Virus record (IMG/VR): IMGVR_UViG_3300037247_000443 | Coordinates: 1-20,531 of that record | From: a virus | DNA: 20,531 nt | Direction: 5' to 3' (one strand) | Part shown: piece by piece, positions 4,285 through 18,923 of the stretch | Layout of the letters: each line of letters starts with the position of its first letter | Numbering within the stretch: the first letter of the stretch is position 1 | Translations under genes and position numbers: made by a program | The notes under the pieces: model-generated | What the model was told of the DNA's origin: nothing | Database searches by the model: none | Seen by the model: the letters and a program-made list of their open reading frames with translations, nothing else

Positions 4285-5631
4285 TTACGGTAGGAAACCT
4301 TCCATACTAGCACTTACGTAAGTGTGGACCGATAAGATCTCCTCTTCCGACAATTCTCTAGGCCACCAACCATGGTACGAGAATGAACCAGAAAACACCG
4401 AAGGGGATGGGGCTTCAAGGAGCGATCCAAGCGAAAAGTTAGTGCTTATTTCCGGCATGGTAATATTAAAGCTCTTGCTCACAGTTGAAACCAGAACACC
4501 GTTTTTATATGCCTTTTGCTTTGCTTCTCCGTCTGGTCCTACTGTATATGCAATAGTCTGCCACTCACCATATGACGCAGTAAGTTGCATTCCACCAGAT
4601 GGTTCTCCTCCTGTTGATGAAGTTACAAAGTAGTCGAACGTCGAAGCAGAATAATTAAGTCTAATTCCTACTGATCCTGAAACTTGACCGAGAACGGAAA
4701 TACCTGTATCTGCTACACCTTCGTATGGCTTGACTGCTACGAAAATAGTATGTTCCCAATCCGAACCAGTATCAAAGCTCCAACCTATTGCGTTGCCGGT
4801 TTGACTGGTGCGCAATCGACCATTAATTACATCTATCCGAGGTGGACCGGTTTCTAAAGTACTGCCTGTTCCGAGAAATTCCTGGTCGAAAGCGTGAATA
4901 AGTTCCCACACATCTTCCGTCGTACCTGGGGTTGGGGACCAAAATAGTCCAGCACCGGAAACAACTAATTCTACAACTACGGGCTCTGAATATTCCCAAA
5001 TTCTAATTAATCCTGCACTTCCAGCTCCACCGCGGCCGAGAACTGCTCCGGATCCACCTGCACCAAACAAAGATGCATCTCTTGCTAACGGTTGATTTGG
5101 TAGTTTAGTAGAAACTCCTGGACCACCAGCCCCAAAGAATCCATCTGCTCCATCTCCTGAGATCTTGCGCTTGTGTGTGGTTTCGTCTAGATATTTGAAT
5201 CCACGTCCGCCGACCGTGCCATCTAGTTTTACTTCTCCAACACCGTCCGCCGCAACTCCACCGGCGCCACCCTTTGGTGCTGCGCCTCCTTGTCCGCCAG
5301 ATCCTCCTTTAGCCAAACAGAATGATGCAGAATCAAACCATGTATCTTGTCCTACTGAACCGGTGTTTTGATCTCTAGTTCTTGGATTTCCCCAACCACC
5401 TGCCCCTCCATCTCCTACTTGAACAGCATAAGGACCTGGAATTACGGATCCTGATGGAATTACTTCATTAGAATATGCTCCAGCTCCGCCTCCGCCTGCA
5501 ATTCCTGTTCCTCCGGAAGTTCCGCCTCCGCCTGCTCCGCCACCGATACACTCAATAAACAGAGCTTCAGTATCGCTATAGGCAGCATACGAGGTTGTTC
5601 CCGATACGATTGTTACTTTACGTAATGCCAT
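4285..5631 (-). CDS. Glycine-rich protein fused to a LamG-like lectin domain, putative adhesin
   Basis: A 448-residue two-part protein. Residues 1-215 are glycine-rich, with blocks such as CIGGGAGGGGTSGGTGI, LAKGGSGGQGGAAPKGG and GDGADGFFGAGGPG, ending GSAGLIRIWEYSE. This half is clearly paralogous to the whole 219-residue protein at 9304-9963. Residues 225-448 look like a LamG/concanavalin A-like beta-sandwich: HTIFVAVKPYEG, then WQTIAYTVGPDGEAKQKAYK and NGVLVSTVS, then a closing FSYHGWWPRELSEEEILSVH. Glycine-rich domains form polyglycine-helix adhesin tips in phages such as T4-like S16 (gp38). Binding host surface sugar is therefore a reasonable inference, not shown. A GGAG site precedes the ATG. 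Confidence 0.85.
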   Translation of the reverse strand: MALRKVTIVSGTTSYAAYSDTEALFIECIGGGAGGGGTSGGTGIAGGGGAGAYSNEVIPSGSVIPGPYAVQVGDGGAGGWGNPRTRDQNTGSVGQDTWFDSASFCLAKGGSGGQGGAAPKGGAGGVAADGVGEVKLDGTVGGRGFKYLDETTHKRKISGDGADGFFGAGGPGVSTKLPNQPLARDASLFGAGGSGAVLGRGGAGSAGLIRIWEYSEPVVVELVVSGAGLFWSPTPGTTEDVWELIHAFDQEFLGTGSTLETGPPRIDVINGRLRTSQTGNAIGWSFDTGSDWEHTIFVAVKPYEGVADTGISVLGQVSGSVGIRLNYSASTFDYFVTSSTGGEPSGGMQLTASYGEWQTIAYTVGPDGEAKQKAYKNGVLVSTVSKSFNITMPEISTNFSLGSLLEAPSPSVFSGSFSYHGWWPRELSEEEILSVHTYVSASMEGFLP

Positions 5632-7839: not shown

Positions 7840-8085
7840 TTAAAGTTTGCCTGGCTTGTTTACCGCATCCTTAAATCGTTCTGCGTCAAACTGTGGATTT
7901 TGATTCTTTCCAAGCACAATAGCAAAGGCAGTTAAAACAGCTCTATGCTGTGGAGATGCCTTTCTAATTTCACGTGCCATCATGATGAAATCTTTCCTGC
8001 TCATCCCTTCATGCAATTGCTGTTTCATCTTGCTCCGTGCAAAGATTTCCTCACGGACGATTCGTTTAATTTCATTGAGCTTCAT
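7840..8085 (-). CDS. Small protein with IVREEI helix between gp13-like and gp14-like genes
   Basis: An 81-residue unrecognised protein. The N-terminus MKLNEIKRIVREEIFARSKM is an amphipathic helix of the [IL]-x-x-[IV]-V-R-E-E type seen in other small proteins of this window. It is followed by QLHEGMSRKDFIMMAREIRK and LTAFAIVLGKNQNPQFDAER. It is inserted in the otherwise T4-like gp13-gp14-gp15 string, 9 bases after the gp13-like stop and 8 before the gp14-like start. AAGG precedes the ATG. Function is unknown; a head-packaged or assembly-helper role is a guess from the shared helix. Confidence 0.75.
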   Translation of the reverse strand: MKLNEIKRIVREEIFARSKMKQQLHEGMSRKDFIMMAREIRKASPQHRAVLTAFAIVLGKNQNPQFDAERFKDAVNKPGKL

Positions 8086-9303: not shown

Positions 9304-9963
9304 TTAATCTGAATACTCCCAAACTCTGATCAGTCCTGCACTTCCAGGACCACCACGATCTCGGTTTGCACCGCCGCCACCGGATCCATACAGAGATCCG
9401 CTTCTTGCTAGTGGGTGACCTAGAACTTTGCTATTAATGCCTGGGGCGCCGCCGCCAAAGAATCCATCTGCTCCATCTCCTGACTGAGCCTGTTTGCGAG
9501 TAGAAGGATCTTGATACTGAAATCCTACTGTACCGGATGCGCCATCTACTTTCAAACTTCCAGTTCCTAAACTAGCAAGGCCTCCACCTCCGCCCTTCGG
9601 AGATGCTGCTCCTTGTCCACCGGAGCCTCCTTTAGCCAAACATCTTGACGCAGAAGGTTCAAACCACGTATCCGATCCTGCTGAACCGGTATTATAATCT
9701 TGGCGGGTTGCAGTTCCCAAACCACCACCTCCTCCGGCTCCTACAGAACAAGACAATGACCCTCCACTTTCACTTACAGATCCTGACGGAATGAAGAGTG
9801 CGGAATATGCTCCACCTCCGCCTCCGCCTGAAATTCCTAATCCTGAAGCGCCTCCACCGCCACCACCTCCGCCTAAACATTCAATGTATAAAGCTGACGT
9901 GCTGGAACCTGTAGCGAATGAACCAGTGCCTTGGTATATATTTGTTATTCTCTCTAATGGCAT
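9304..9963 (-). CDS. Glycine-rich adhesin-like protein
   Basis: A 219-residue glycine-rich protein, with blocks ECLGGGGGGGGASGLGISGG, LAKGGSGGQGAASPKGGGGG and GDGADGFFGGGAPG, ending GSAGLIRVWEYSD. It is a clear paralogue of residues 1-215 of the glycine-rich/LamG fusion at 4285-5631. They share the order TALYIECxGGG, NTGSxGxDTWF, LAKGGSGGQG, GDGADGFFG and GSAGLIR-WEYS. It is therefore that domain standing alone without a LamG partner. Glycine-rich repeats of this kind form stacked polyglycine helices in some phage fibre-tip adhesins, so a host-binding or decoration role is inferred. A GGAGG site lies upstream of the ATG. It sits directly upstream of the gp13-like neck gene. Confidence 0.82.
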   Translation of the reverse strand: MPLERITNIYQGTGSFATGSSTSALYIECLGGGGGGGGASGLGISGGGGGGAYSALFIPSGSVSESGGSLSCSVGAGGGGGLGTATRQDYNTGSAGSDTWFEPSASRCLAKGGSGGQGAASPKGGGGGLASLGTGSLKVDGASGTVGFQYQDPSTRKQAQSGDGADGFFGGGAPGINSKVLGHPLARSGSLYGSGGGGANRDRGGPGSAGLIRVWEYSD

Positions 9964-10018
9964 TTTTTATCCTCCAAAATTTTTAGCCAAACAAACAAGA
10001 TTACTCATACATATAACG

Positions 10019-10438
10019 TTAACGATGATAATACTCCATTTCATTGTCGTTTGAATTGCGACTACCACAAGGTTCGGCTGCAATTATTCGAATTGTGGAG
10101 TAAGATGCCATCCTGCTATCAATTGTCCATATCCAACCGGGCCGACCAGAAAAGTTTTGCGAAGGTGCATACCATCTTGTTTTTGATGCTAGAGCGGAAA
10201 AACTAAATTGAACAAATTCATCCGATCTTCTAAGTCTGACGCATTCTTCCTGGCCAGAAAATATGGTAGCAATTCTACCAACATCATCATACACTTTAAT
10301 GAGATCATACCCATCATTAACAATGAGTAGGTAAACATCGTCACGTGCGAAATTATTGGTGAATCCTTGTCGAGCTGCACCGCACCCCACAATTATTGCT
10401 AGCCCGACAACTATAAATATTTTGAAAAATTTCAACAT
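10019..10438 (-). CDS. Small putative membrane lipoprotein
   Basis: A 139-residue protein starting MLKFFKIFIVVGLAIIVGCG. Two lysines, a hydrophobic stretch and IVGC fit a lipoprotein signal peptide with lipidation at Cys19. I prefer this ATG (10436-10438) because AGGAAG lies 6 bases upstream. The frame also opens at 10489, but that start has a less plausible hydrophilic leader and lies against the preceding terminator. The mature part is polar, with two further cysteines. It sits alone behind the capsid terminator and before the glycine-rich gene. Phage lipoproteins often block superinfection or act in lysis; which, if either, applies here is unknown. It is not a recognised T4 structural gene. 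Confidence 0.72.
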   Translation of the reverse strand: MLKFFKIFIVVGLAIIVGCGAARQGFTNNFARDDVYLLIVNDGYDLIKVYDDVGRIATIFSGQEECVRLRRSDEFVQFSFSALASKTRWYAPSQNFSGRPGWIWTIDSRMASYSTIRIIAAEPCGSRNSNDNEMEYYHR

Positions 10439-10447
10439 GGCTAGCTT

Positions 10448-10477
10448 CCTATGTAATATGTTACTCCTATACATAGG
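10448..10477 (-). repeat. Inverted repeat overlapping the lipoprotein ribosome-binding site
   Basis: CCTATGTA (10448-10455) and TACATAGG (10470-10477) are perfect 8-bp arms separated by 14 bases. On the mRNA the arm nearest the gene overlaps the AGGAAG Shine-Dalgarno sequence of the lipoprotein gene. The hairpin could therefore mask the ribosome-binding site. The alternative is a dyad operator or processing site. The symmetry is seen; the function is inferred. Confidence 0.45.
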
Positions 10478-10490
10478 GAATGTGGGCATG

Positions 10491-10518
10491 AAAAAGGCCG
10501 ACTATTACTAGTCAGCCT
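10491..10518 (-). terminator. Rho-independent terminator after the major capsid gene
   Basis: Read on the minus strand, AGGCTGACTA, loop GTAA, then TAGTCGGCCT form a 10-bp stem with one G-U pair, followed at once by a U-run (TTTTTC). It lies 28 bases past the capsid stop codon. This is a textbook intrinsic terminator and would separate the scaffold/capsid transcript from the neck and tail genes downstream. Confidence 0.88.
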
Positions 10519-10545
10519 CATTCATTAAGTCACCGCCGTATCGGC

Positions 10546-12222
10546 TTATAGTCGAGTTAGACCCTCAACAAGAATACGACCGTAGAACTCTGGTCGAACA
10601 ATCTTCTTAGCGTAACGAGTCAAGACGCCTCTACGTGGAGTAAAGTTGTCAGGATCGTATACAAGAGGTGTCATTACTAGAGGGACGTAAGGTGCGTACA
10701 CCGCGCCGGTCTCTAGGAAGTTAGATCCCTTGTATCCAAGAAGGATAACGTTCGTTAACATATACGGATTCTTGTAAACCGTGTAACGGTTCTGGAAGGA
10801 ACCGACCTGGGTTACTCCAGCTGCATACTTCATTCGGTCACCGTCAGTCTCTACCGTGAAACCAGGAATGGTTTCAAGGATCGTCGAAACGTCAGGCGAA
10901 CAAACTAGGAAGTTTGCGCCACCACGAAGGGTGAGCTGGTGAATCTTGTTGCTTACCTTCTGGATCTTCTGACCCAAAGTCTCAAACCAAGTTTGATTGG
11001 TCCAAGCCTGTGCTGCAAGGTTAGCATCATTCTGGAAGTTGCCTGTCACGCCGTTAAAAATTCTAGCGATTGTTACAGACCAATAATCCGTTGTCTGTGC
11101 ATTGATGATAAGCATGTCCAGAATTTCAAGATCGATTTCAAGTGAGATATACTCACTCAACATCGCCGTCAACTCTGCCTCAGCGTCAATGCTGTGATAA
11201 GCGTTAAGGTCCTGTGCAAGTTCCGGAGTCCAAACAGCCTTCAACTTACGAGTCTTAGCTACGATTGGAATGCTCTTGAGCTCTAAGTCAATCTCTGGAA
11301 TACCAAGAGATGCCTGTGCTGTTGCACTTGAGTTTACAAGCTCCGAACGATCGTCCTCGAAGTCGCCTCGGGTTGAATCCGATGGCTGTGCGTGATATAG
11401 AACACTGGTGATAATAGCTTCATCATTTGAACCAGTGTCACTTCCAACGAATACAATAGTTCCACCGCCCTGCGTGCCACTTAGGAACGTATATTCAGGT
11501 AGCCAACCGTCAAGCTCGACGGATGCTGACATAGGAACGAATGCTCGAATGCCCTCAAAGTCCGGACGAGTGAAGTCGCCTACTGCTACCTCGTAGTATC
11601 TCAAGTTAGGAAGAGTTGCTACGACGGATTCGTTGAAGTTAACTGAGGCTGAAGTAACTGATGCAGATGATGCGAAATCATTCTGCGTTGCGGTCTGATC
11701 GTTGATGGAATAGCCCCACGCTCCATCACCATACAATCCGCCGGTTGGTACTACTGATGCAGATGGGAATAGTGCTCCCTTGTCACTCGTCTTTGAAATA
11801 CCGAATACCGAATCGCCAGATGTTCTTGGCAACTTAGTAGTTCCATACTTGAAGTCCATGAAGAAGATTAGACCAGAAGGAAGATTCATAGGCTGAATGC
11901 TTACGAACTCCTTAGCTGCAATCTCACCAAAGACCTTTCGAACGAGAGGAAGTGCAACACCTGCCCACTGCTCACCCGAACCTGCTACGCCGACTGCAAT
12001 ACCGGCAGAGGTTGGGTTTGTGGTCGTGCTTTCGTCAATTAGCTGACGGGCCTGGTTCTCAAGGAGAACGGCCATGCCGTGACGCTCATTGTCACCGTCA
12101 AGTCCTTCTAGAAGGCCGGTTGGGCCCCATTTGCCGGTGAGCGCACGTGTCTGTTGAAGCAGAACTGCACGCGGCGTCTGCGCATCAGCCATTAATTGAC
12201 CAAGATTAATTTCACCACTCAT
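10546..12222 (-). CDS. gp23: T4 gp23-like major capsid protein (precursor)
   Basis: Main HK97-fold shell protein of the phage head. Length is 558 residues (T4 gp23 is 521). Family-typical stretches include LVRKVFGEIAAKEFVSIQPM, NLPSGLIFFMDFKYGT, LKAVWTPELAQDLNAYHSID, LEIDLEILDMLI and the end RYAKKIVRPEFYGRILVEGL. The N-terminal 64 residues look like the removable propeptide. Sites fitting the gp21-type [LI]-x-E rule are LLE (37-39), LLE (53-55) and IDE (62-64); the last is nearly where T4 gp23 is cut (residue 65). AGAGGA lies 7 bases before the ATG. It follows the scaffold gene by 25 bases and is closed by the terminator at 10491-10518. Confidence 0.97.
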   Translation of the reverse strand: MSGEINLGQLMADAQTPRAVLLQQTRALTGKWGPTGLLEGLDGDNERHGMAVLLENQARQLIDESTTTNPTSAGIAVGVAGSGEQWAGVALPLVRKVFGEIAAKEFVSIQPMNLPSGLIFFMDFKYGTTKLPRTSGDSVFGISKTSDKGALFPSASVVPTGGLYGDGAWGYSINDQTATQNDFASSASVTSASVNFNESVVATLPNLRYYEVAVGDFTRPDFEGIRAFVPMSASVELDGWLPEYTFLSGTQGGGTIVFVGSDTGSNDEAIITSVLYHAQPSDSTRGDFEDDRSELVNSSATAQASLGIPEIDLELKSIPIVAKTRKLKAVWTPELAQDLNAYHSIDAEAELTAMLSEYISLEIDLEILDMLIINAQTTDYWSVTIARIFNGVTGNFQNDANLAAQAWTNQTWFETLGQKIQKVSNKIHQLTLRGGANFLVCSPDVSTILETIPGFTVETDGDRMKYAAGVTQVGSFQNRYTVYKNPYMLTNVILLGYKGSNFLETGAVYAPYVPLVMTPLVYDPDNFTPRRGVLTRYAKKIVRPEFYGRILVEGLTRL

Positions 12223-12247
12223 AGTGATTTTCCTCTAAGTTTAATGG

Positions 12248-13729
12248 TTAGCTTTTAATTCCTGCGAGCTTCTGGAATCGTGCGGCTAAAGCTGCACCTT
12301 CTGCAAGAACGGTTGGTACTATTTCGCCTGTATTAGGCGTGACCTTCCGTCTTGATCGTGTGCTGCCGACGGCTCTTGAAGCTAGCCCCTCGGTAATCGT
12401 TCTCTTACGAGAAACTGGCTTACCTCGGAATGCCTCCGCGAGTGTTGCAAATACCAACTTAGCCTCGCGAACGGTTGTTGCTCTGTCAAATCCCTCTACA
12501 ACACGCATCTTCTGACGAACGTCCATATTATATGACTTGAACAATTTGTTCGTAAATAGCAACTTCGCGTTGAGTAGATTTACTTCGTTGAGCTTACTAC
12601 GCAGGTATCGAATAGCGTCCCGGTATTCTTTCAGCTCACTTCTAAGAGAAGTAACTTCGTACTGTACTTTGTCGTCGTTCTCCTCATCTTCGATCTCCTT
12701 TAGAATTTCTTCCAAGTCGATTTCATCGTCATCTTCATCCCCAAACTGTTCAGAGATTGCGTCTGTCTGCTTATCGCCTTCTCCCTGAGTAAAGGATGAG
12801 TCTGCTGTTACAGATGCGTCCTTCTCACCACCCTCGCCGGGGCCGTGTCCGTCAGATACTTCTGCGTCGTTCTGTTCCAACACTGGCTCTTCCTCTTCTT
12901 CATCACCAAATTCCATGCCAGCATCAATTGGCTCTTCTTCACCATAGTCGTCCATTTCGTCGTCGCCCATCATATCAGCTTCGAGCTCGGCGATAATTGC
13001 TTCTAGGTCAAGGTCACGATCACCTTCATCGTCAAATTCATCTTCACCACCCATTTCTGGTCCCATTTCACCACCACCCATTTCTGGTTCCATTTCACCA
13101 CCACCTAATTCTGGTTCCATTTCACCACCACCTAATTCTGGTCCCATACCACCACCTAATTCTGGTGCCATTTCGCCACCACCCATTTCGGGTGCCATTT
13201 CCTCTTCATCGTCAGCGCCAAACGGATCCTCTTCATCATCATCTTCGAAGATTCCTTCTCTAACAGGAGTGCCTGCAGGTTGCTGCAGACCTTCGTTATC
13301 AGTGTCGCCGGAAGTAGTTGCGGCGGAAGCAGCGGTTGCTGGTTCCTTTGGACTGGAAGTACCATACTGCTGAGTTGGCTCCGTTGCGATAGCCGAACTA
13401 TCTAGGCCAACGTCGCTATCAGGTGCATCATCAAGTGCTTCTGTGGTGACATCTTGATCACCAGTAAACGAGGACTTCTCCACCTTCTCTGCGTTCTTCG
13501 AGCCGCCTTCGCCAGGACCGTGACCGTCAGATACTTCTGCATCGTTCAGTTCATCAAGATCTTCCTCGTCACCATAATCGGTTTCGTTTCTAAGACGGGT
13601 AGACAACATTGAGGTGAGGTGCGGAGTAAATGCCTCTTCTAGAGCTGCCTTTGCATTAGCGAGTGCGGTCTCTCGGACTGCCTTTGCATCTGCAATTGCT
13701 TCTCTTAATAGTTTATTCCTTCGTGCCAT
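12248..13729 (-). CDS. gp22: T4 gp22-like prohead core scaffolding protein, enlarged and acidic
   Basis: Internal scaffold around which the capsid assembles and which the prohead protease then destroys. It is 493 residues, far longer than T4 gp22 (about 269). The C-terminal third (about 356-440) carries the family pattern: long helices with LKEYRDAIRYLRSKLNEVNL, LNAKLLFTNKLFK, KMRVVEGFDRATTVREAKLV and the ending RFQKLAGIKS. The N-terminus is helical (MARRNKLLREAIADAKAVRE). Between them lies an extremely acidic region with six 9-residue Met/Pro/Glu/Gly repeats (177-229) and two copies of NDAEVSDGHGPGEGG (62-76 and 287-301). It is placed directly before the capsid gene, as in T4. GAGGA precedes the ATG. 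Confidence 0.9.
   Translation of the reverse strand: MARRNKLLREAIADAKAVRETALANAKAALEEAFTPHLTSMLSTRLRNETDYGDEEDLDELNDAEVSDGHGPGEGGSKNAEKVEKSSFTGDQDVTTEALDDAPDSDVGLDSSAIATEPTQQYGTSSPKEPATAASAATTSGDTDNEGLQQPAGTPVREGIFEDDDEEDPFGADDEEEMAPEMGGGEMAPELGGGMGPELGGGEMEPELGGGEMEPEMGGGEMGPEMGGEDEFDDEGDRDLDLEAIIAELEADMMGDDEMDDYGEEEPIDAGMEFGDEEEEEPVLEQNDAEVSDGHGPGEGGEKDASVTADSSFTQGEGDKQTDAISEQFGDEDDDEIDLEEILKEIEDEENDDKVQYEVTSLRSELKEYRDAIRYLRSKLNEVNLLNAKLLFTNKLFKSYNMDVRQKMRVVEGFDRATTVREAKLVFATLAEAFRGKPVSRKRTITEGLASRAVGSTRSRRKVTPNTGEIVPTVLAEGAALAARFQKLAGIKS
13043..13201 (-). repeat. In-frame 27-bp tandem repeats in the scaffold gene
   Basis: Six consecutive units encode variants of EM(A/E/G)PE(L/M)GGG; one unit lacks its first Glu. 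At the DNA level the 27-base units are near-identical in the middle of the array. The array keeps frame and probably expands and contracts by slippage. The repeats add methionine, glutamate and flexible glycine to an already acidic linker. Confidence 0.9.
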
Positions 13730-13858
13730 GTCTTTCCTCTAATGGTTCAGGAACTATTAGGAGTCCCTACAAAAGTCTGGATATATCGCATAACACCTTA
13801 CAGAAAGGTGTATTACATACTTAAATAGTATCTATGATACGGAAACAATCAATTTTAA
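13730..13858 (-). promoter_or_regulatory. Structured leader of the scaffold/capsid transcript
   Basis: This 129-base stretch lies between a terminator and the scaffold start codon, so a promoter is expected in or near it. It holds two small hairpins. One is ATACT/AGTAT with a 5-base loop (13817-13831); the other is ACACCTT/AAGGTGT with a 5-base loop (13793-13811). It ends with an AGAGGA ribosome-binding site. I see no exact T4-type late promoter (TATAAATA on the minus strand) and no convincing sigma-70 pair. Confidence 0.4.
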
Positions 13859-13902
13859 TGAAAAAGTGCCGCTAAATATTGATTATACAATATTTTAGCG
13901 AC
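13859..13902 (-). terminator. Rho-independent terminator closing the upstream head block
   Basis: On the minus strand, GTCGCTAAAATATTG, loop TATAAT, then CAATATTTAGCGGC pair over about 14 bp with one bulged A and one G-U pair, followed by ACTTTTTC. It begins 8 bases after the stop codon of the 90-residue gene. The stem is AT-rich in its upper half but has a GC-containing base and a U-tract, so termination is likely. It isolates the scaffold/capsid pair from the genes transcribed before it. Confidence 0.75.
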
Positions 13903-13909
13903 ATATTTG

Positions 13910-14182
13910 TCAGTCTTGAGCGTAATATTGGCCGGATATACTTAAAAAAGAGTGTCCACCAGCATCAGCTATCTGTGCATAAATCTGGCCACCATCACTC
14001 CAAAATGAAGGACGAGCTTGTGGGTGTTGGTCTTTAAGTTTTTTTAGAAACGTAGCCCATTCCTCAGAACTCACGCGTCTCTTCGCATCAGATATAGTAA
14101 TGCGCCGGCGCGGACCAGCTTCATCTATACGACTTGCCTCAGTAAGCAAGTTATTTCTAAGAAACTTTCTAAGTCGGAACAT
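13910..14182 (-). CDS. Small protein with LLTE N-terminal motif
   Basis: A 90-residue unrecognised protein, the last gene before the terminator at 13859-13902. The N-terminus MFRLRKFLRNNLLTEASRID is a basic amphipathic helix ending in LTE, which fits the [LI]-x-E cleavage rule of gp21-type proteases. The remainder has EEWATFLKKLKDQHPQARPS and a C-terminal beta-like GGQIYAQIADAGGHSFLSIS. No strong Shine-Dalgarno sequence precedes its ATG, which is one base past the previous stop codon, so translation is probably coupled. A head-internal protein is possible, by inference from the motif and position. Confidence 0.72.
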   Translation of the reverse strand: MFRLRKFLRNNLLTEASRIDEAGPRRRITISDAKRRVSSEEWATFLKKLKDQHPQARPSFWSDGGQIYAQIADAGGHSFLSISGQYYAQD

Positions 14183-14183
14183 T

Positions 14184-14408
14184 TTAATTTTTGACTATTA
14201 CTTTGGATCGATTGATATTCATTGTTGCGCCTTGAGCAAGTCTAACTCGCACGCTTGCGGCCGCTGTCCATAGTACCTGTCCAGGTCCATGCGGCGTCTC
14301 AACTTTGTCGCCTCTCTTAGGTTTCGATTCGTTCAGTTTGATTCCGCTCTCCTTCAGGACGCGTCGAACCTCTTCTCGAACGATTTGTCTTACTTCTCGC
14401 TCTCGCAT
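14184..14408 (-). CDS. Small protein with IVREEV helix and possible SH3-like barrel, overlapping bS21
   Basis: A 74-residue protein whose first 31 codons overlap the end of the bS21 gene in another frame. It starts MREREVRQIVREEVRRVLKE, the clearest example of the V-R-E-E helix shared by several proteins here. LKE and LNES follow, the first an [LI]-x-E site. The C-terminal half (KRGDKVETPHGPGQVLWTA, then SVRVRLAQGATMNINRSKVI) has the alternating pattern of a small SH3/KOW-like barrel. That is a fold guess, not a family match. The shared helix argues that this frame is real. Confidence 0.72.
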   Translation of the reverse strand: MREREVRQIVREEVRRVLKESGIKLNESKPKRGDKVETPHGPGQVLWTAAASVRVRLAQGATMNINRSKVIVKN

Positions 14409-14592
14409 TTGCCTCTCTCCTTCTACGTTTGAATGCCTCTTGCCGTTTCAATTTGCGTTTCAAAGACGGCTTAAGATGATATTCGTGTTTTCTCAGGTCT
14501 TCGAGTATACCTGCTCGCTTAACTCGTTTCTTAAACTCAACCAACGCTCGACCAAACGCGGCGTCACCGTCTCCTCGTACATCAATCTGCAT
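14317..14592 (-). CDS. rpsU: Ribosomal protein bS21, phage-encoded
   Basis: A homologue of bacterial small-subunit protein bS21, which sits near the mRNA exit/anti-Shine-Dalgarno region and helps translation initiation. Residues 1-66 match the family: MQIDVRGDGDAAFGRALVEF (start strand and first helix), KKRVKRAGILEDLRKHEYHL, then KPSLKRKLKRQEAFKRRRRE. Compare E. coli bS21 '[25 protein letters not shown]'. Cellular bS21 is about 70 residues; this reads to 91 because its frame stays open through the start of the next gene. AAGG lies about 5 bases before the ATG. Phage-borne bS21 is known from aquatic phages and could join host ribosomes to favour phage mRNA. It lies in the head-assembly block, so expression is probably late. 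Confidence 0.92.
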   Translation of the reverse strand: MQIDVRGDGDAAFGRALVEFKKRVKRAGILEDLRKHEYHLKPSLKRKLKRQEAFKRRRREANARARSKTNRSRRGSTRPEGERNQTERIET

Positions 14593-14607
14593 AAAACCTT
14601 CTTTCTG

Positions 14608-14838
14608 TTATCTTACTGTAGACAGATTTATTTTTTTCAATGGCCTAATTGACCATTGCTTTAATTTACCACCAAATTTGGTTCTCATAGTTTGAAAACC
14701 ACCAATGCTATCCCATCTTCCAGTTTCCGGCGTTTCGTGCCGTGCAGGTATTAATTTCTCTATGATTTTTTTAGCATCTGCCATAGATTCAGCATACCCA
14801 AAGGAACTACCATTGTGAAGTAGTAATAGAACAGCCAT
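14608..14838 (-). CDS. Small unrecognised protein upstream of bS21
   Basis: A 76-residue protein: MAVLLLLHNGSSFGYAESMA, then DAKKIIEKLIPARHETPETG and a basic end. The first seven residues are hydrophobic but too short for a signal peptide. The DAKKIIEKL helix and the later tryptophans suggest a small folded alpha/beta protein. Its ATG is two bases after the stop codon of the spanin-like gene, and bS21 starts 15 bases after its end. I do not recognise a family; the position near membrane and ribosomal-protein genes does not settle the role. Confidence 0.7.
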   Translation of the reverse strand: MAVLLLLHNGSSFGYAESMADAKKIIEKLIPARHETPETGRWDSIGGFQTMRTKFGGKLKQWSIRPLKKINLSTVR

Positions 14839-14840
14839 AA

Positions 14841-15164
14841 TTATCTTTCAATTCCTAATTCAGAACATTTCTCAATTAGTCCTTGTCGTTGAAGATTCTC
14901 TTTTGGATTCTCAATACACTCACCTCTGACTACGGCCTCAAGCAGAATTTGCTGACTTACCATGTGCCGGTCAATGTCTGATAAAGTATCATTTATAACG
15001 ACATGCTCAACTGCATGCTCCTCTTGGTATTCTGCCATTACAGCACCAGGTCCTGTAATTGAAAATCCAAATGCGGATGCAACAATCACCACTCCTATTG
15101 AACCGCCTGCAAGTGTGGCAGGCCATTTTAAAAATGCTAACACTGCGGCTCCATCTAGCGCCAT
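14841..15164 (-). CDS. Single-pass membrane protein, spanin-like or lysis-accessory candidate
   Basis: A 107-residue protein with one hydrophobic segment at about 14-38 (WPATLAGGSIGVVIVASAFG). After it comes a polar, probably coiled-coil tail, EYQEEHAVEHVVINDTLSDI and then DRHMVSQQILLEAVVRGE, with two cysteines. An N-terminal anchor plus periplasmic helix fits an inner-membrane spanin-type or other lysis-accessory protein, but no family signature is visible. Its ATG overlaps the stop of the two-pass membrane protein gene (TAATG), so the two are made together, as expected for a holin/partner pair. The function is inferred from topology and pairing. Confidence 0.75.
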   Translation of the reverse strand: MALDGAAVLAFLKWPATLAGGSIGVVIVASAFGFSITGPGAVMAEYQEEHAVEHVVINDTLSDIDRHMVSQQILLEAVVRGECIENPKENLQRQGLIEKCSELGIER

Positions 15165-15505
15165 TATCCCATCTCCTCTTCACCTGCCACGTCCTCTTCT
15201 AAAGTCGGTATAGGTTTTGAATGTCCATTACGAATGCGATCTGCTTCCGCTTGTTCTGTTGGTGACCACGAAGTCTTGCGCTTATTGTGGTGCTGCCAAA
15301 CGTCCAGGCCGGCCATTCCGGCCAAAAAAATCAACCATTCCCACACTGGAATCCATGTAGATGTCCAGTAATGGATAGCTGTTCCTAACACGATACCCAA
15401 TGTCATTAGGATACGAATATTTGTAGTCGGTGCGGTTGCTATAAGGGAATATACTTTATCTACAACACCATTAACACCACTACGTACACCATTAACAATA
15501 TTCAT
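15164..15505 (-). CDS. Two-pass membrane protein, holin-like candidate
   Basis: A 113-residue protein with two hydrophobic segments: about 29-48 (NIRILMTLGIVLGTAIHYWT) and 54-70 (VWEWLIFLAGMAGLDVW). They are joined by a short turn and followed by a basic/acidic soluble tail (HHNKRKTSW to EEDVAGEEEMG). Size, topology and tail fit small phage holins. From memory, similar 'EWLxFLAxMAGLDV' proteins occur in phage genomes as putative holins, though unproven. It is coupled by TAATG overlaps to the gene before it and to the single-pass membrane gene after it. No endolysin is visible in the window. Confidence 0.75.
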   Translation of the reverse strand: MNIVNGVRSGVNGVVDKVYSLIATAPTTNIRILMTLGIVLGTAIHYWTSTWIPVWEWLIFLAGMAGLDVWQHHNKRKTSWSPTEQAEADRIRNGHSKPIPTLEEDVAGEEEMG

Positions 15506-16629
15506 TACTTGTGCTTCTGCCGAGCCTTCTTGCGATTCTTAGCTGCTTGACGTTTCTTTGAACCCCACTTGCGTCGGCCCTTGTGCTTCTTTGGGTAGCC
15601 TTCATTTTTACTCAGTCTTTTCAAGTTACGAATCTCTTTTGCTCTAACTCTTTCTGCAGCTGGAGTGAGCTGAGTTGTGTCACTAGAGAATCGTTTTTGC
15701 CATTTATCTGCGACTCTTTTTCTATCACCGGATTGTGGGCCACTTCCAGGACCACCTTCTGCCCTCACCTGCATCATTTCAGAAATCTTACTAAACACTT
15801 CTCTAGCTTCATCTACATTTTTGACGTTAAGTCTACGAAGTATTTCTAATGCTTGGTCATGTGTAAACCCTTGCTGCCCACGTGCAATGGATTTTGGTGT
15901 GCGAAGAGCCTTGCGAGCTCGCTGTGGAGTTTCTTCACCCTTTTCAGGAAGTATGCGTCCCATAACAGCATCAACAATGGTCTCAACTGTTTCGTCATCA
16001 TCTTCTTCGTCATCATCGCCGTTAAAATCAAAACCACCATAACCACCATCATCTAACACTCCGCCTTGTTCATCCTCTTCATCTTCATCACCCGACAGCG
16101 CTCCACCCATTCCTTGTGCCTGCCCGCCTCCAATATCGCCAGTCGGCATTGCATCTTGTAGTGGCGCTATTTCAAAGTAACGAGCCAACACGTTACCCAT
16201 ATCATCATATAGAGCGGTAGACCGCTGCTGCATCATATCCATTTCTTGAGCTAGCTTTACGAATGAACCTGCGTGCTTCTTCAACTCACTCATATTTCTT
16301 TTGACTGTATGTTTGTCAAACCAGTCATCGGCCTCTTGCATAACAGTTGCTTCTGCCATTTCTGCAATGCCAGCAATCTGCTTTGCAACTTCCATAAAGG
16401 TGCCAGTTTTCTTGAGCGCTTCGCCCAAACGGGAAAAGTTTGCGATGACTGCAACAGGATTCATTGCGCTCTGAACTTTCTGTGAGTCTCCGCCTCTACT
16501 GAAATCTTCAATGTCATTAGACTTGACGGCATCAGTAGCACTCTGGACTTTTCGAGAGTATCTGTTCGCTCCCTTTCCGTCCATCGGATTTTGTGGTGGT
16601 CTACGTTCGTTGTAATTTGGTCCAGGCAT
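15505..16629 (-). CDS. Candidate head structural protein with acidic middle and basic tail
   Basis: A 374-residue protein in four parts. Residues 45-155 are helical, with NPVAVIANFSRLGEALKKTG, DDWFDKHTVKRNMSELKKHA and STALYDDMGNVLARYFEI. Residues 160-215 are glycine-rich and very acidic. Residues 250-285 form a small helical domain (THDQALEILRRLNVKNVDEA). Next come GGPGSGP (292-298), a heptapeptide I recall from many phage head proteins, and a strongly basic tail (346-374, KKHKGRRKWGSKKRQAAKNR). A helical first part of this kind is, from memory, common next to protease genes in T4-like environmental phages. An internal virion or DNA-contacting role is inferred. AGGAG precedes the ATG. Confidence 0.8.
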   Translation of the reverse strand: MPGPNYNERRPPQNPMDGKGANRYSRKVQSATDAVKSNDIEDFSRGGDSQKVQSAMNPVAVIANFSRLGEALKKTGTFMEVAKQIAGIAEMAEATVMQEADDWFDKHTVKRNMSELKKHAGSFVKLAQEMDMMQQRSTALYDDMGNVLARYFEIAPLQDAMPTGDIGGGQAQGMGGALSGDEDEEDEQGGVLDDGGYGGFDFNGDDDEEDDDETVETIVDAVMGRILPEKGEETPQRARKALRTPKSIARGQQGFTHDQALEILRRLNVKNVDEAREVFSKISEMMQVRAEGGPGSGPQSGDRKRVADKWQKRFSSDTTQLTPAAERVRAKEIRNLKRLSKNEGYPKKHKGRRKWGSKKRQAAKNRKKARQKHK

Positions 16630-16649
16630 TTATTATCTCCTATTGAGCC

Positions 16650-17735
16650 TTACTCAGTTGCGGCACTAACTCTATCCTCAAATTCATCCCTACTCTCACC
16701 CTTACGCATTGTAATACCATGCTTAGCGGCGAGAACATCTAGCTTTGCTGCACGTTCTCCTTCAGCTGCGGGATCATATGCTTCTGTTCGTGCCACTCGT
16801 CTTTCCATTAAAACTTCTCGCACCATACCCCGAACATATTCACGAACTTTTTGAATACCTTCATTGCGACCTTTAGACTTTCTATCTTCCGGGTAATCAT
16901 CATATGCATCTCTATAACTAGCAACTCCAGCAACACGTTGAGACGGCGGAACATCATGTTTGGATGTTCTTACCCAATCCTTATCAGCATCTTTACCTTC
17001 AGGTCGCATGCGATTCTTAGCAAAGTCCCCTTGCACATACGAAGCTGGACTACCCTTATGAGTAGAATCTGCAAATCGTATTGCTGTTGGTTTATCTGGA
17101 AAATAATCCACACGGCCACTTCTTGCTCTTGCGCCCCAACCGGGTTTTGCTAGACGGTTATTAGGACCTGACTGCCAATAACTTCCCTTTGAATGAATTC
17201 TCCATTCCCAACTTGAAGCATCATATCCTCGCGGCGCCCGACCTTTCTTTTTCTGAACACTCGTTTCGTCCTTCGCTTCACGAAGGCCCTCAGTCTTACC
17301 TTTAATAAAATTTCCTGCTACGTAGGAAGATGGTCCACCTTTATGCGTATAATTTGCAAAGTCTTGGGCGTCGGACACTCCCCAAAAATAATCTATTTGC
17401 CCACTCTTTGCGCGCGCTCCCCAATTTTCAGCTTTTGTTGGTCCCGAAAGTTTCCAATAACTTCCCTTTGAGTGGATTCTCGAATCCCAAGCGTTTTTAT
17501 GACCGCGGTATCGTTGTGGCATAGGCTTTGCTTGGGCTACGGGGGTTTCGTCCTTAGCTTCACTTATTTTCTTTGGAAGTCCCTTGTGCTTTGTTGAGGC
17601 AAAATCTTTGGCGTCCTTCTTCTTTATTGACTTTGCTGTTTTGGCAACTTCAGGACTGGCTGCTTTGCCGCCCTTCTTTTGTGCGGCATGTACCATTCCC
17701 ATAAATTTCTGTTGTGCTACTGATTTTGCTGGCAT
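16650..17735 (-). CDS. DUF3008-like protein with a duplicated 90-residue module
   Basis: A 361-residue protein. Residues 1-57 match the DUF3008 pattern: MPAKSVAQQKFMGMVHAAQK, then KKKDAKDFASTKHKGLPKKI. DUF3008 proteins are small, of unknown function, and usually consist of this domain alone. Here it is followed by two tandem copies of an unfamiliar module (58-145 and 152-241) and a polar linker. After that is a helix VREYVRGMVREVLMERR (297-313) of the V-R-E type, and an end domain LDVLAAKHGITMRKGESRDE. The motif FAxx[KT]HKGxP occurs three times, once in DUF3008 and once in each module. It follows the prohead protease by 3 bases, with GAGGAAG overlapping the protease stop. A head-internal or processed protein is a guess. 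Confidence 0.82.
   Translation of the reverse strand: MPAKSVAQQKFMGMVHAAQKKGGKAASPEVAKTAKSIKKKDAKDFASTKHKGLPKKISEAKDETPVAQAKPMPQRYRGHKNAWDSRIHSKGSYWKLSGPTKAENWGARAKSGQIDYFWGVSDAQDFANYTHKGGPSSYVAGNFIKGKTEGLREAKDETSVQKKKGRAPRGYDASSWEWRIHSKGSYWQSGPNNRLAKPGWGARARSGRVDYFPDKPTAIRFADSTHKGSPASYVQGDFAKNRMRPEGKDADKDWVRTSKHDVPPSQRVAGVASYRDAYDDYPEDRKSKGRNEGIQKVREYVRGMVREVLMERRVARTEAYDPAAEGERAAKLDVLAAKHGITMRKGESRDEFEDRVSAATE
17013..17564 (-). repeat. Tandem protein-level duplication inside the DUF3008-like gene
   Basis: Copy A (about 17564-17301) and copy B (about 17282-17013) encode about 90 residues each. Both run EAKDET(P/S)V, then RIHSKGSYW, then WGARA(K/R)SG(Q/R)(I/V)DYF, then FA(N/D)xTHKGxPxSYVxG(N/D)F. 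At the DNA level they remain similar (for example the RIHSKGSYW codons), but they have diverged, so the duplication is not recent. Confidence 0.88.
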
Positions 17736-17738
17736 ATT

Positions 17739-18335
17739 TTACTTCCTCGTCACTTCGCTCATGAAATCATACACAAGACTGTTAACTCGACACCAGACGC
17801 CACATTTAGCTCCAGGTAAAGCCGATTCATTAATGAATGCTCCCTCCGTTGAGGGGTTCGAAACTACATCAAAGCAGATAAGGTTGAAATCCTCTTGAAC
17901 TTCAACAGTATCTTCGTCCAATTCTTTAATCGAACCAAGACCACGACTAGAAATTCCCAACCTAATGTTGTTCTTCAACAGTTCCTTGAGAATATTGCCC
18001 GATGGAGTGGATAAGACTTCTATGTTGCCCATCAAATTCTCACCATTGAACCAAAGCTCAGTAAGATTGTGAGAGACATTCTTAAGGTTAACGACTGGGC
18101 TTTCTGGATGGTCTAGTTCGCCAAGTGCTCGTCGTTCTTTAATGAATTGTTTGTATCTCACGGCTTCCCGTTGTAAAATCGGCATAGGATAAATTCGGCC
18201 GTTCTGGTTCTTTTGGTTCGCCGTTTGGAGAACCACATTCTTAAGAATAAGCGGGCCGCCCTTACCTAATGCCTCGGTAATCATTTGACGGTCGTAGGTC
18301 AAATATGTGAAATCTGTTAATATCTGTCCAGTCAT
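17739..18335 (-). CDS. gp21: T4 gp21-like prohead maturation protease
   Basis: A serine protease (peptidase S77-type) that degrades the scaffold and trims head proteins after [LI]-x-E sites during prohead maturation. It is 198 residues (T4 gp21 is about 212). The catalytic His motif GELDHPESPVVNL has His76, and the catalytic Ser motif GISSRGLGS has Ser129/130. The order of N-terminal NGRIYPMPIL, SHNLTELWFNGENLMG, STPSGNILKELL and FDVVSNPSTEGAFI is typical of the family. ITE (19-21) and INE (168-170) could be self-processing sites. A strong AAGGAGG overlaps the previous stop codon. No gp22-type gene follows directly; the DUF3008-like gene does. Confidence 0.95.
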   Translation of the reverse strand: MTGQILTDFTYLTYDRQMITEALGKGGPLILKNVVLQTANQKNQNGRIYPMPILQREAVRYKQFIKERRALGELDHPESPVVNLKNVSHNLTELWFNGENLMGNIEVLSTPSGNILKELLKNNIRLGISSRGLGSIKELDEDTVEVQEDFNLICFDVVSNPSTEGAFINESALPGAKCGVWCRVNSLVYDFMSEVTRK

Positions 18336-18347
18336 AGTTATACCTCC

Positions 18348-18923
18348 TTAGGCGGATCCGGTTCCTACGGTAATGCGCCAGATAGTATTATCAACTGGTG
18401 GCGACTCGAAGAGCGATGCCGTTGGCGCTGCAAACGATGCAGTAGGTCCGGTCGGAGCTTGACTTGCTGTTAGAAACGGTATCAAGGCTGACCCGGTAAT
18501 TGGAACCGCAAGGCTGCTCGTTGGGCCAGGAGTTATCCACTCCCCCTTCCAACCTCCAGGCTTTAATGAGAAGGATGGTTCGAAAAATGGAACCCCAGGA
18601 CTAACAATCACTGGAAATCCTACATCACTGGCCGATACTGGTGGATCAATACTCAATAGTGTTTTCTTTTCAATTATTGTTCCGCTTAACGGTTCAAAAC
18701 TAGAAGATATATTGTATTTTCTAGTTTTTGACTTCCTTAATGCGGCTGATGGTTGAACGCCATCTGTTCCAGCTGGTCTGATGGTTCGACCTGTGCTTCC
18801 AGTGTAACCATCGAAATCTTCAAAGCCACCAACCAGGTCTACAGATATAATAAAGGATCCAGACGCAACAAGAATGGCGTCTCGCGCTCCTCTACCAATT
18901 ACTTCTAATACTTCGTTTGCCAT
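18348..18923 (-). CDS. Unrecognised beta-rich protein upstream of the protease
   Basis: A 191-residue protein with low charge and many Ser, Thr, Pro and Gly residues. It starts MANEVLEVIGRGARDAILVA and continues SGSFIISVDLVGGFEDFDGY; it ends IWRITVGTGSA. Alternating hydrophobic/polar residues suggest a beta structure. A Pro/Ala/Ser-rich stretch near 150-172 (ASQAPTGPTASFAAPTASLF) looks like a linker. Its stop codon lies in the Shine-Dalgarno sequence of the protease gene, so the two are coupled. A minor virion protein is plausible from position and composition, but I recognise no family. Confidence 0.75.
   Translation of the reverse strand: MANEVLEVIGRGARDAILVASGSFIISVDLVGGFEDFDGYTGSTGRTIRPAGTDGVQPSAALRKSKTRKYNISSSFEPLSGTIIEKKTLLSIDPPVSASDVGFPVIVSPGVPFFEPSFSLKPGGWKGEWITPGPTSSLAVPITGSALIPFLTASQAPTGPTASFAAPTASLFESPPVDNTIWRITVGTGSA

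Follow-up and report, generated by a model that had tools for sequence, protein, structure and literature searches.

Phage-encoded copies of the ribosomal protein bS21 have been described previously. In the part of their paper available to us, Chen et al. (2022; PMC9723584) describe bS21 phages of freshwater Bacteroidetes in which bS21 lies beside protease and capsid genes; structural genes were found within ten genes of bS21 in 388 of 900 published bS21 phages. It has been reported there that bS21 and the structural genes are transcribed together late in infection, and a takeover of the ribosome and packaging of bS21 in the virion were both proposed; bS21 is placed on the opposite strand, and the region is not transcribed as a single operon (PMC9723584). 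It has been shown that bS21 of the Pelagibacter phage HTVC008M enters E. coli 70S ribosomes, and that ribosomes with viral bS21 made about 5% of the normal amount of protein in vitro, the host being a foreign one (Mizuno et al., 2019; PMC6375957, available part). According to the same source, hosts and viruses have exchanged bS21 on several occasions. The accessible text of PMC7162821 describes N-terminal extensions on phage rpS21; in PMC13157829, S21 was found only in the reference list. A phage bS21 beside head genes, its late transcription and a proposed ribosome takeover are already published, and the locus described here is a further example.

In this study, bS21 (rpsU) was analyzed in a stretch of viral DNA of 20,531 bases, referred to as the window. 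The window is an entire IMG/VR record with a single bS21 match, and is therefore probably a genome fragment. The 91-aa coding sequence occupies positions 14317..14592 on the minus strand, with the ATG start at 14592 and a stop codon ending at 14317. An earlier interpretation made from the letters alone (the sequence-only reading) had placed bS21 at these positions, correctly, and had named no strand. It had also proposed a profile search, in which Pfam PF01165 (Ribosomal_S21) matched residues 13-58 with 47.7 bits (E 1.3e-12; profile positions 10-55, window 14419..14556, minus strand). Against a cut-off of 27 bits, the match is evidently not a chance one. NCBIfam TIGR00030 matched residues 13-59 (46 bits, cut-off 28.95 bits), phrog_21469 (ribosomal protein S21) was the PHROGs match over residues 12-69, and every one of the 39 distinct solved-chain sequences with a match at E <= 1 is named S21 (best E 1.1e-6), the best three spanning between residues 10 and 72. 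Because the profile and chain matches cover about residues 10-72 only, the first 9-11 residues and the part beyond about residue 70 appear to be without clear bS21 likeness. The sequence-only reading, in which residues 1-66 matched bS21 throughout, was slightly generous, the likeness being unclear in the first 9-11 residues.

An AlphaFold2 model built from nine window and viral-contig sequences (mean pLDDT 74, pTM 0.33) predicts helices at residues 10-27, 29-37 and 44-74, with residues 38-43 as coil; past residue 74, where pLDDT is 50-55, it shows no helix. The two helices joined by a coil that are expected of bS21 are present in this model (10-27/29-37 and 44-74). A Foldseek search with the model gave no significant match (best E 1.2, chain 6nu2_AQ, named mitochondrial S21), so the fold comparison alone is uninformative for bS21.

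The gene is located within the head block of a T4-like phage fragment; the earlier reading had likewise placed it in a head-assembly gene block. It lies between a prohead protease of the T4 gp21 type (17739..18335; PF03420, E 2.5e-24) and a scaffold-like gene (12248..13729) with the major capsid protein of the T4 gp23 type (10546..12222; phrog_138, E 8.9e-71), all on the minus strand. Recognition of the scaffold-like gene relied on where it lies and on an N-terminus that is conserved in the family; no profile matched it above cut-off. The order of head genes in T4 is gp21, gp22, gp23. The gene order of the window is the same, with bS21 and small genes inserted between protease and scaffold. 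All head and tail genes that could be named (protease, scaffold-like, capsid, head-tail adaptor, tail sheath, tail tube and fiber-assembly) are on the minus strand. Immediately upstream of bS21 is a small minus-strand gene (14608..14838) with no family of known function, and two more small minus-strand genes (14841-15164 and 15164-15505, together 14841..15505) show hydrophobic stretches by eye and match no lysis family. The description of the neighbors as lysis-like was not borne out: at E <= 0.1, none of the three matched a family of known function in Pfam or PHROGs. On the other side, the gene that overlaps the bS21 3' end (14184-14408) is followed by a small gene of 90 aa (13910..14182, minus strand) with a sub-cut-off Pfam match only (E 0.011).

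Several other features of the block were observed. The scaffold-like protein carries the block NDAEVSDGHGPGEGG twice, together with a Gly/Met/Glu repeat run (by eye). The products of 14184-14408, 13910-14182, 1278-1508 and 7840-8085 (all minus strand) have a helix-like start followed by an LxE-like site (VLKE, LLTE, LLTE and QLHE, respectively), which we take to resemble the capsid-targeting starts cut by T4 gp21; these small genes may encode internal head proteins. The products of 4285-5631 and 9304-9963 (minus strand) have a common glycine-rich N-terminal region by eye; the former matches phrog_863 (tail fiber assembly), and the two resemble duplicates of a single fiber-like module. In L001, a relative from a different contig with a bS21 87% identical to that of the window, an extra open reading frame (10764-11123) separates the scaffold-like gene from the small head genes; none is listed at this place in the window, and by eye the frame looks like a homing gene of the HNH/endonuclease VII kind.

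The placement of bS21 was compared across the best 80 loci among the matches kept from a capsid-homologue search of viral contigs; L001 was excluded from the 80 because bS21 itself had brought it in. PF01165 was found in 49 of the 80 records (50 of 81 with L001). The stretch from protease through capsid is spanned by 52 of these loci, and in 42 of them bS21 lies between both, on the capsid strand. The other ten spanning loci have no bS21 at the head-block place, and two of them (L053 and L065) have it elsewhere in the record; strictly speaking, bS21 is therefore neither indispensable nor bound to the block. In these two records (G052 and G064) it is about 100 kb or more from the head block. 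Five more of the best 80 loci have bS21 upstream of the capsid gene with the protease undetected, and the remaining 23 show neither arrangement, 21 of them holding less than 2.5 kb upstream of the capsid gene. Wherever bS21 was near the capsid gene among the best 80, it was on the capsid strand (47 of 47 loci). The placement of bS21 is a lineage trait.

The same arrangement is present in an isolate, Microcystis phage Mel-JY01 (PP395634), in which rpsU (WWT39311) lies between the prohead protease and the capsid gene on the same strand. The capsid proteins of this phage and the window are 49% identical; in contrast, the bS21 proteins are 31% identical, and the annotated next gene of Mel-JY01 does not overlap bS21. 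The isolate was recovered via its capsid gene, not via bS21: tblastn of the window bS21 against isolate phages gave 13 records, all at E 0.02 or worse, and missed Mel-JY01. In Flavobacterium phage immuto, no bS21 is annotated within the head block, and tblastn with the window protein did not match its record. Scanning of viral contigs with the single window protein confirmed 1 of 29 stretches, and with query A2, 16 of 114. The myophages of Chen et al. (PMC9723584, available part) are similar in that bS21 lies near terminase, portal, prohead protease and major capsid genes there and near protease and capsid genes here. Unlike in those phages, for which Bacteroidetes hosts are predicted and bS21 is on the opposite strand, bS21 of the window is on the strand of the structural genes; this likeness is one of gene arrangement. 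The SAR11 phage HTVC008M, compared here by its description in the available part of PMC6375957, also carries bS21, 54% identical to that of its own host.

The gene is under purifying selection, as judged from codons 1-61 of window and L001 (pN 0.08, pS 0.34). Identities of bS21 and capsid were correlated across 44 phages (946 pairs; Spearman 0.64), a value reached in none of 2000 permutations, which indicates that bS21 co-diverges with the capsid. A tree of phage and cellular bS21, which had been proposed as a way to place the host, was built from 68 domains (37 phage, 31 cellular) over 50 columns; 117 distinct domain sequences entered, of which 49 near copies were removed, identical ones and those of less than 40 residues having been removed earlier. 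It contains many unresolved forks, and the bootstrap was unsettled. A branch with 97/97 support divides the 37 phage rows from the 31 cellular rows sampled, and at 100/97 the window forms a group with L001, L003 and L135. Most of the cellular rows that carry a name are Bacillota; delta-type lineages, Methylomirabilota, KSB1 and Melainabacteria are also represented, and the remaining cellular rows come from two phyla. Since no row is named as Bacteroidota, Alphaproteobacteria or Gammaproteobacteria, the tree names no host and shows no single origin.

Searches of cellular genomes gave distant relatives. A first scan of cellular genome contigs with query A2 matched 96 stretches, with no relative confirmed among them. 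A looser second scan, with patterns biased toward Bacillota-like bS21, confirmed at least 443 of 590 stretches. The window protein shares its domain with cellular bS21, scoring above the PF01165 and TIGR00030 cut-offs; it differs from the best 80 cellular loci in an identity of at most 58%, over part of the protein, and in a tail beyond codon 62 that overlaps another gene. When the phylum of one cellular match was searched with the window protein, 167 of 191 genomes matched, the best at 56% being the centre genome itself; in the phylum of a second, 214 of 244 matched, and the best among the matches listed (52%) was again the centre genome. A Shine-Dalgarno match of at least 4 nt precedes 19 of 25 window genes at their predicted starts, vs 29.8% of random window positions (binomial p 2.5e-6). 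This would speak for a host that uses Shine-Dalgarno sites and against a typical Bacteroidetes host; Bacteroidetes are described as usually lacking such sites (PMC9723584, available part).

Upstream of the bS21 start there is an AAGG Shine-Dalgarno-like stretch (14597..14600, minus strand), a modest 4-nt match. Autoregulation with an extra-strong Shine-Dalgarno on rpsU has been described in Flavobacteriales (PMC9976891, available part). Such a site as a rule for phage rpsU was rejected, a match of at least 5 nt being detected in 15 of 45 bS21 genes vs 62 of 86 capsid genes, among genes with a placeable first ATG. The strongest matches among the 45 bS21 genes were those of L137 and L145 (8 nt, AAGGAGGT). 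No promoter signal above chance level was found in the window, and motifs resembling T4 late promoters were at chance level (22 matches vs 18.9 expected). The scaffold/capsid terminator of the sequence-only reading was not recovered: terminator-like sites in 10000-18500 were fewer than in shuffles (3 vs 8.1 expected). The late expression that it had suggested is plausible, because bS21 is on the same strand as the scaffold-like and capsid genes and 5' of them; the recurrence of this position in 42 of 52 spanning loci and the published late transcription of other phage bS21 genes point the same way.

The 3' end of bS21 overlaps the next gene, and this is the only detail that seems to be new. 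The downstream gene (14184..14408, minus strand, 74 aa) shares 92 nt with bS21 (14317..14408, minus strand, from codon 62 to the stop) in another frame, and its AAGGAG Shine-Dalgarno (14417..14422, minus strand) is within the bS21 coding sequence. In all four phages of one clade (window, L001, L003 and L135), the start of the downstream gene lies 184 nt past that of bS21 and in a different frame, and the gene's own Shine-Dalgarno sits inside bS21; in L003 the start is an ATG inside a longer listed open reading frame. The two genes share 92 nt in the window, 104 nt in L001, 65 nt in L135 and 44 nt in L003, and the bS21 tails of L003 and L135 are shorter and different. Between window and L001 the overlap is 95% identical, the bS21 core 86% and the rest of the downstream gene 88%. 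Changes within the overlap are four synonymous and one non-synonymous in the downstream frame and one and three, respectively, in the bS21 frame. With five changes only, this suggests that the downstream gene is the constrained frame and that the bS21 tail has been overprinted.

Within the loci searched, the downstream protein has clear relatives in no phage outside the four-phage clade; L060 and L046 gave weak matches (E 0.01-0.1). A model from the four sequences, of moderate confidence (pLDDT 74.6, pTM 0.51), predicts a helix at residues 3-20 and a small five-stranded barrel. Foldseek with this model gave no match at E <= 0.001; the best was MscS (E 0.0078), and weaker ones include Tudor domains and the C-terminal domain of UvrD. 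No report of bS21 overlapping a downstream gene was found in a literature search of mostly titles and abstract openings, with subscription journals mostly uncovered.

Beyond what was observed (the bS21 identity, the same-strand position from protease to scaffold/capsid, its conservation, purifying selection and capsid co-divergence), we propose that bS21 has long been retained as part of the T4-like head gene block. By analogy with the described phages, it is probably produced late, together with scaffold and capsid protein, and probably enters the host 30S subunit, in which bS21 is characteristically placed near the anti-Shine-Dalgarno; there it would replace or join host bS21. Ribosomes bearing it may then favor initiation on the abundant late phage mRNAs. 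This whole reading, a genuine head-block phage bS21 that is made late, enters the 30S and favors late phage mRNAs, is in our judgment the probable one, with considerable room for doubt. A simple boost of translation is disfavored, at least in a foreign host, because ribosomes with viral bS21 gave about 5% protein (PMC6375957, available part). The same result, with HTVC008M bS21 in vitro, is what one would expect if phage bS21 acts mainly as a brake or shut-off factor, taking the place of host bS21 and impairing initiation in the host instead of aiding the translation of phage genes, and the 97/97 branch that separates phage from sampled cellular bS21 agrees with this as well. We nevertheless consider a brake unlikely: that test used a foreign host, and beside capsid genes a general brake would be costly just when capsid protein is needed.

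The stable head-block place and capsid co-divergence would also fit a protein that descended from bS21 and serves outside the ribosome, as a basic protein that binds RNA or DNA and assists head assembly or packaging. Three points make this rather improbable: a family core above both curated cut-offs with low pN/pS, the entry of another phage bS21 into ribosomes (PMC6375957, available part), and the two family members with bS21 far from head genes. Packaging of bS21 in the head and its injection with DNA, so that ribosomes are remodeled from the start of infection, has been proposed in the available part of PMC9723584. Here bS21 is encoded among head-core genes, and its sequence is very basic, which would allow it to accompany packaged DNA; however, no capsid-targeting start was seen before its core (by eye, against the T4 motif), whereas neighboring small genes seem to have such helices, and we give this proposal a small chance. 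A recently acquired passenger gene, or contamination from the host, without a lasting function would be in keeping with repeated host-virus exchange of bS21 (PMC6375957, available part), but is already disfavored by placement (the same place in 42 of the 52 spanning loci), selection and co-divergence, and phage genes flank bS21 on both sides; it is extremely improbable. In the four-phage clade, the tail of bS21 doubles as coding sequence for the beginning of the downstream gene, and the ribosome-binding site of that gene lies inside bS21; we infer that this overlap couples translation of both genes. A more specific and quite speculative proposal, to which we assign a slight chance, is that bS21 and the overlapping gene form a coupled pair in which phage-bS21 ribosomes prefer the Shine-Dalgarno embedded in bS21. 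The altered ribosome would thereby control the gene that follows in the head block, and the overprinted tail would be an element that this clade has added to the switch.

With this locus, the known bS21 phages gain a lineage in which bS21 is linked to the capsid gene and shares its strand. In this head-block lineage bS21 tends to be passed on together with the capsid and not to be a recent acquisition, which fits the published idea that ribosome remodeling belongs to the late programme of diverse phages (PMC9723584, available part). Translational coupling and overprinting could be tested on a small scale where bS21 overlaps the next gene. If the coupled pair of the four-phage clade is real, a phage-altered ribosome would control the next gene of the head block.
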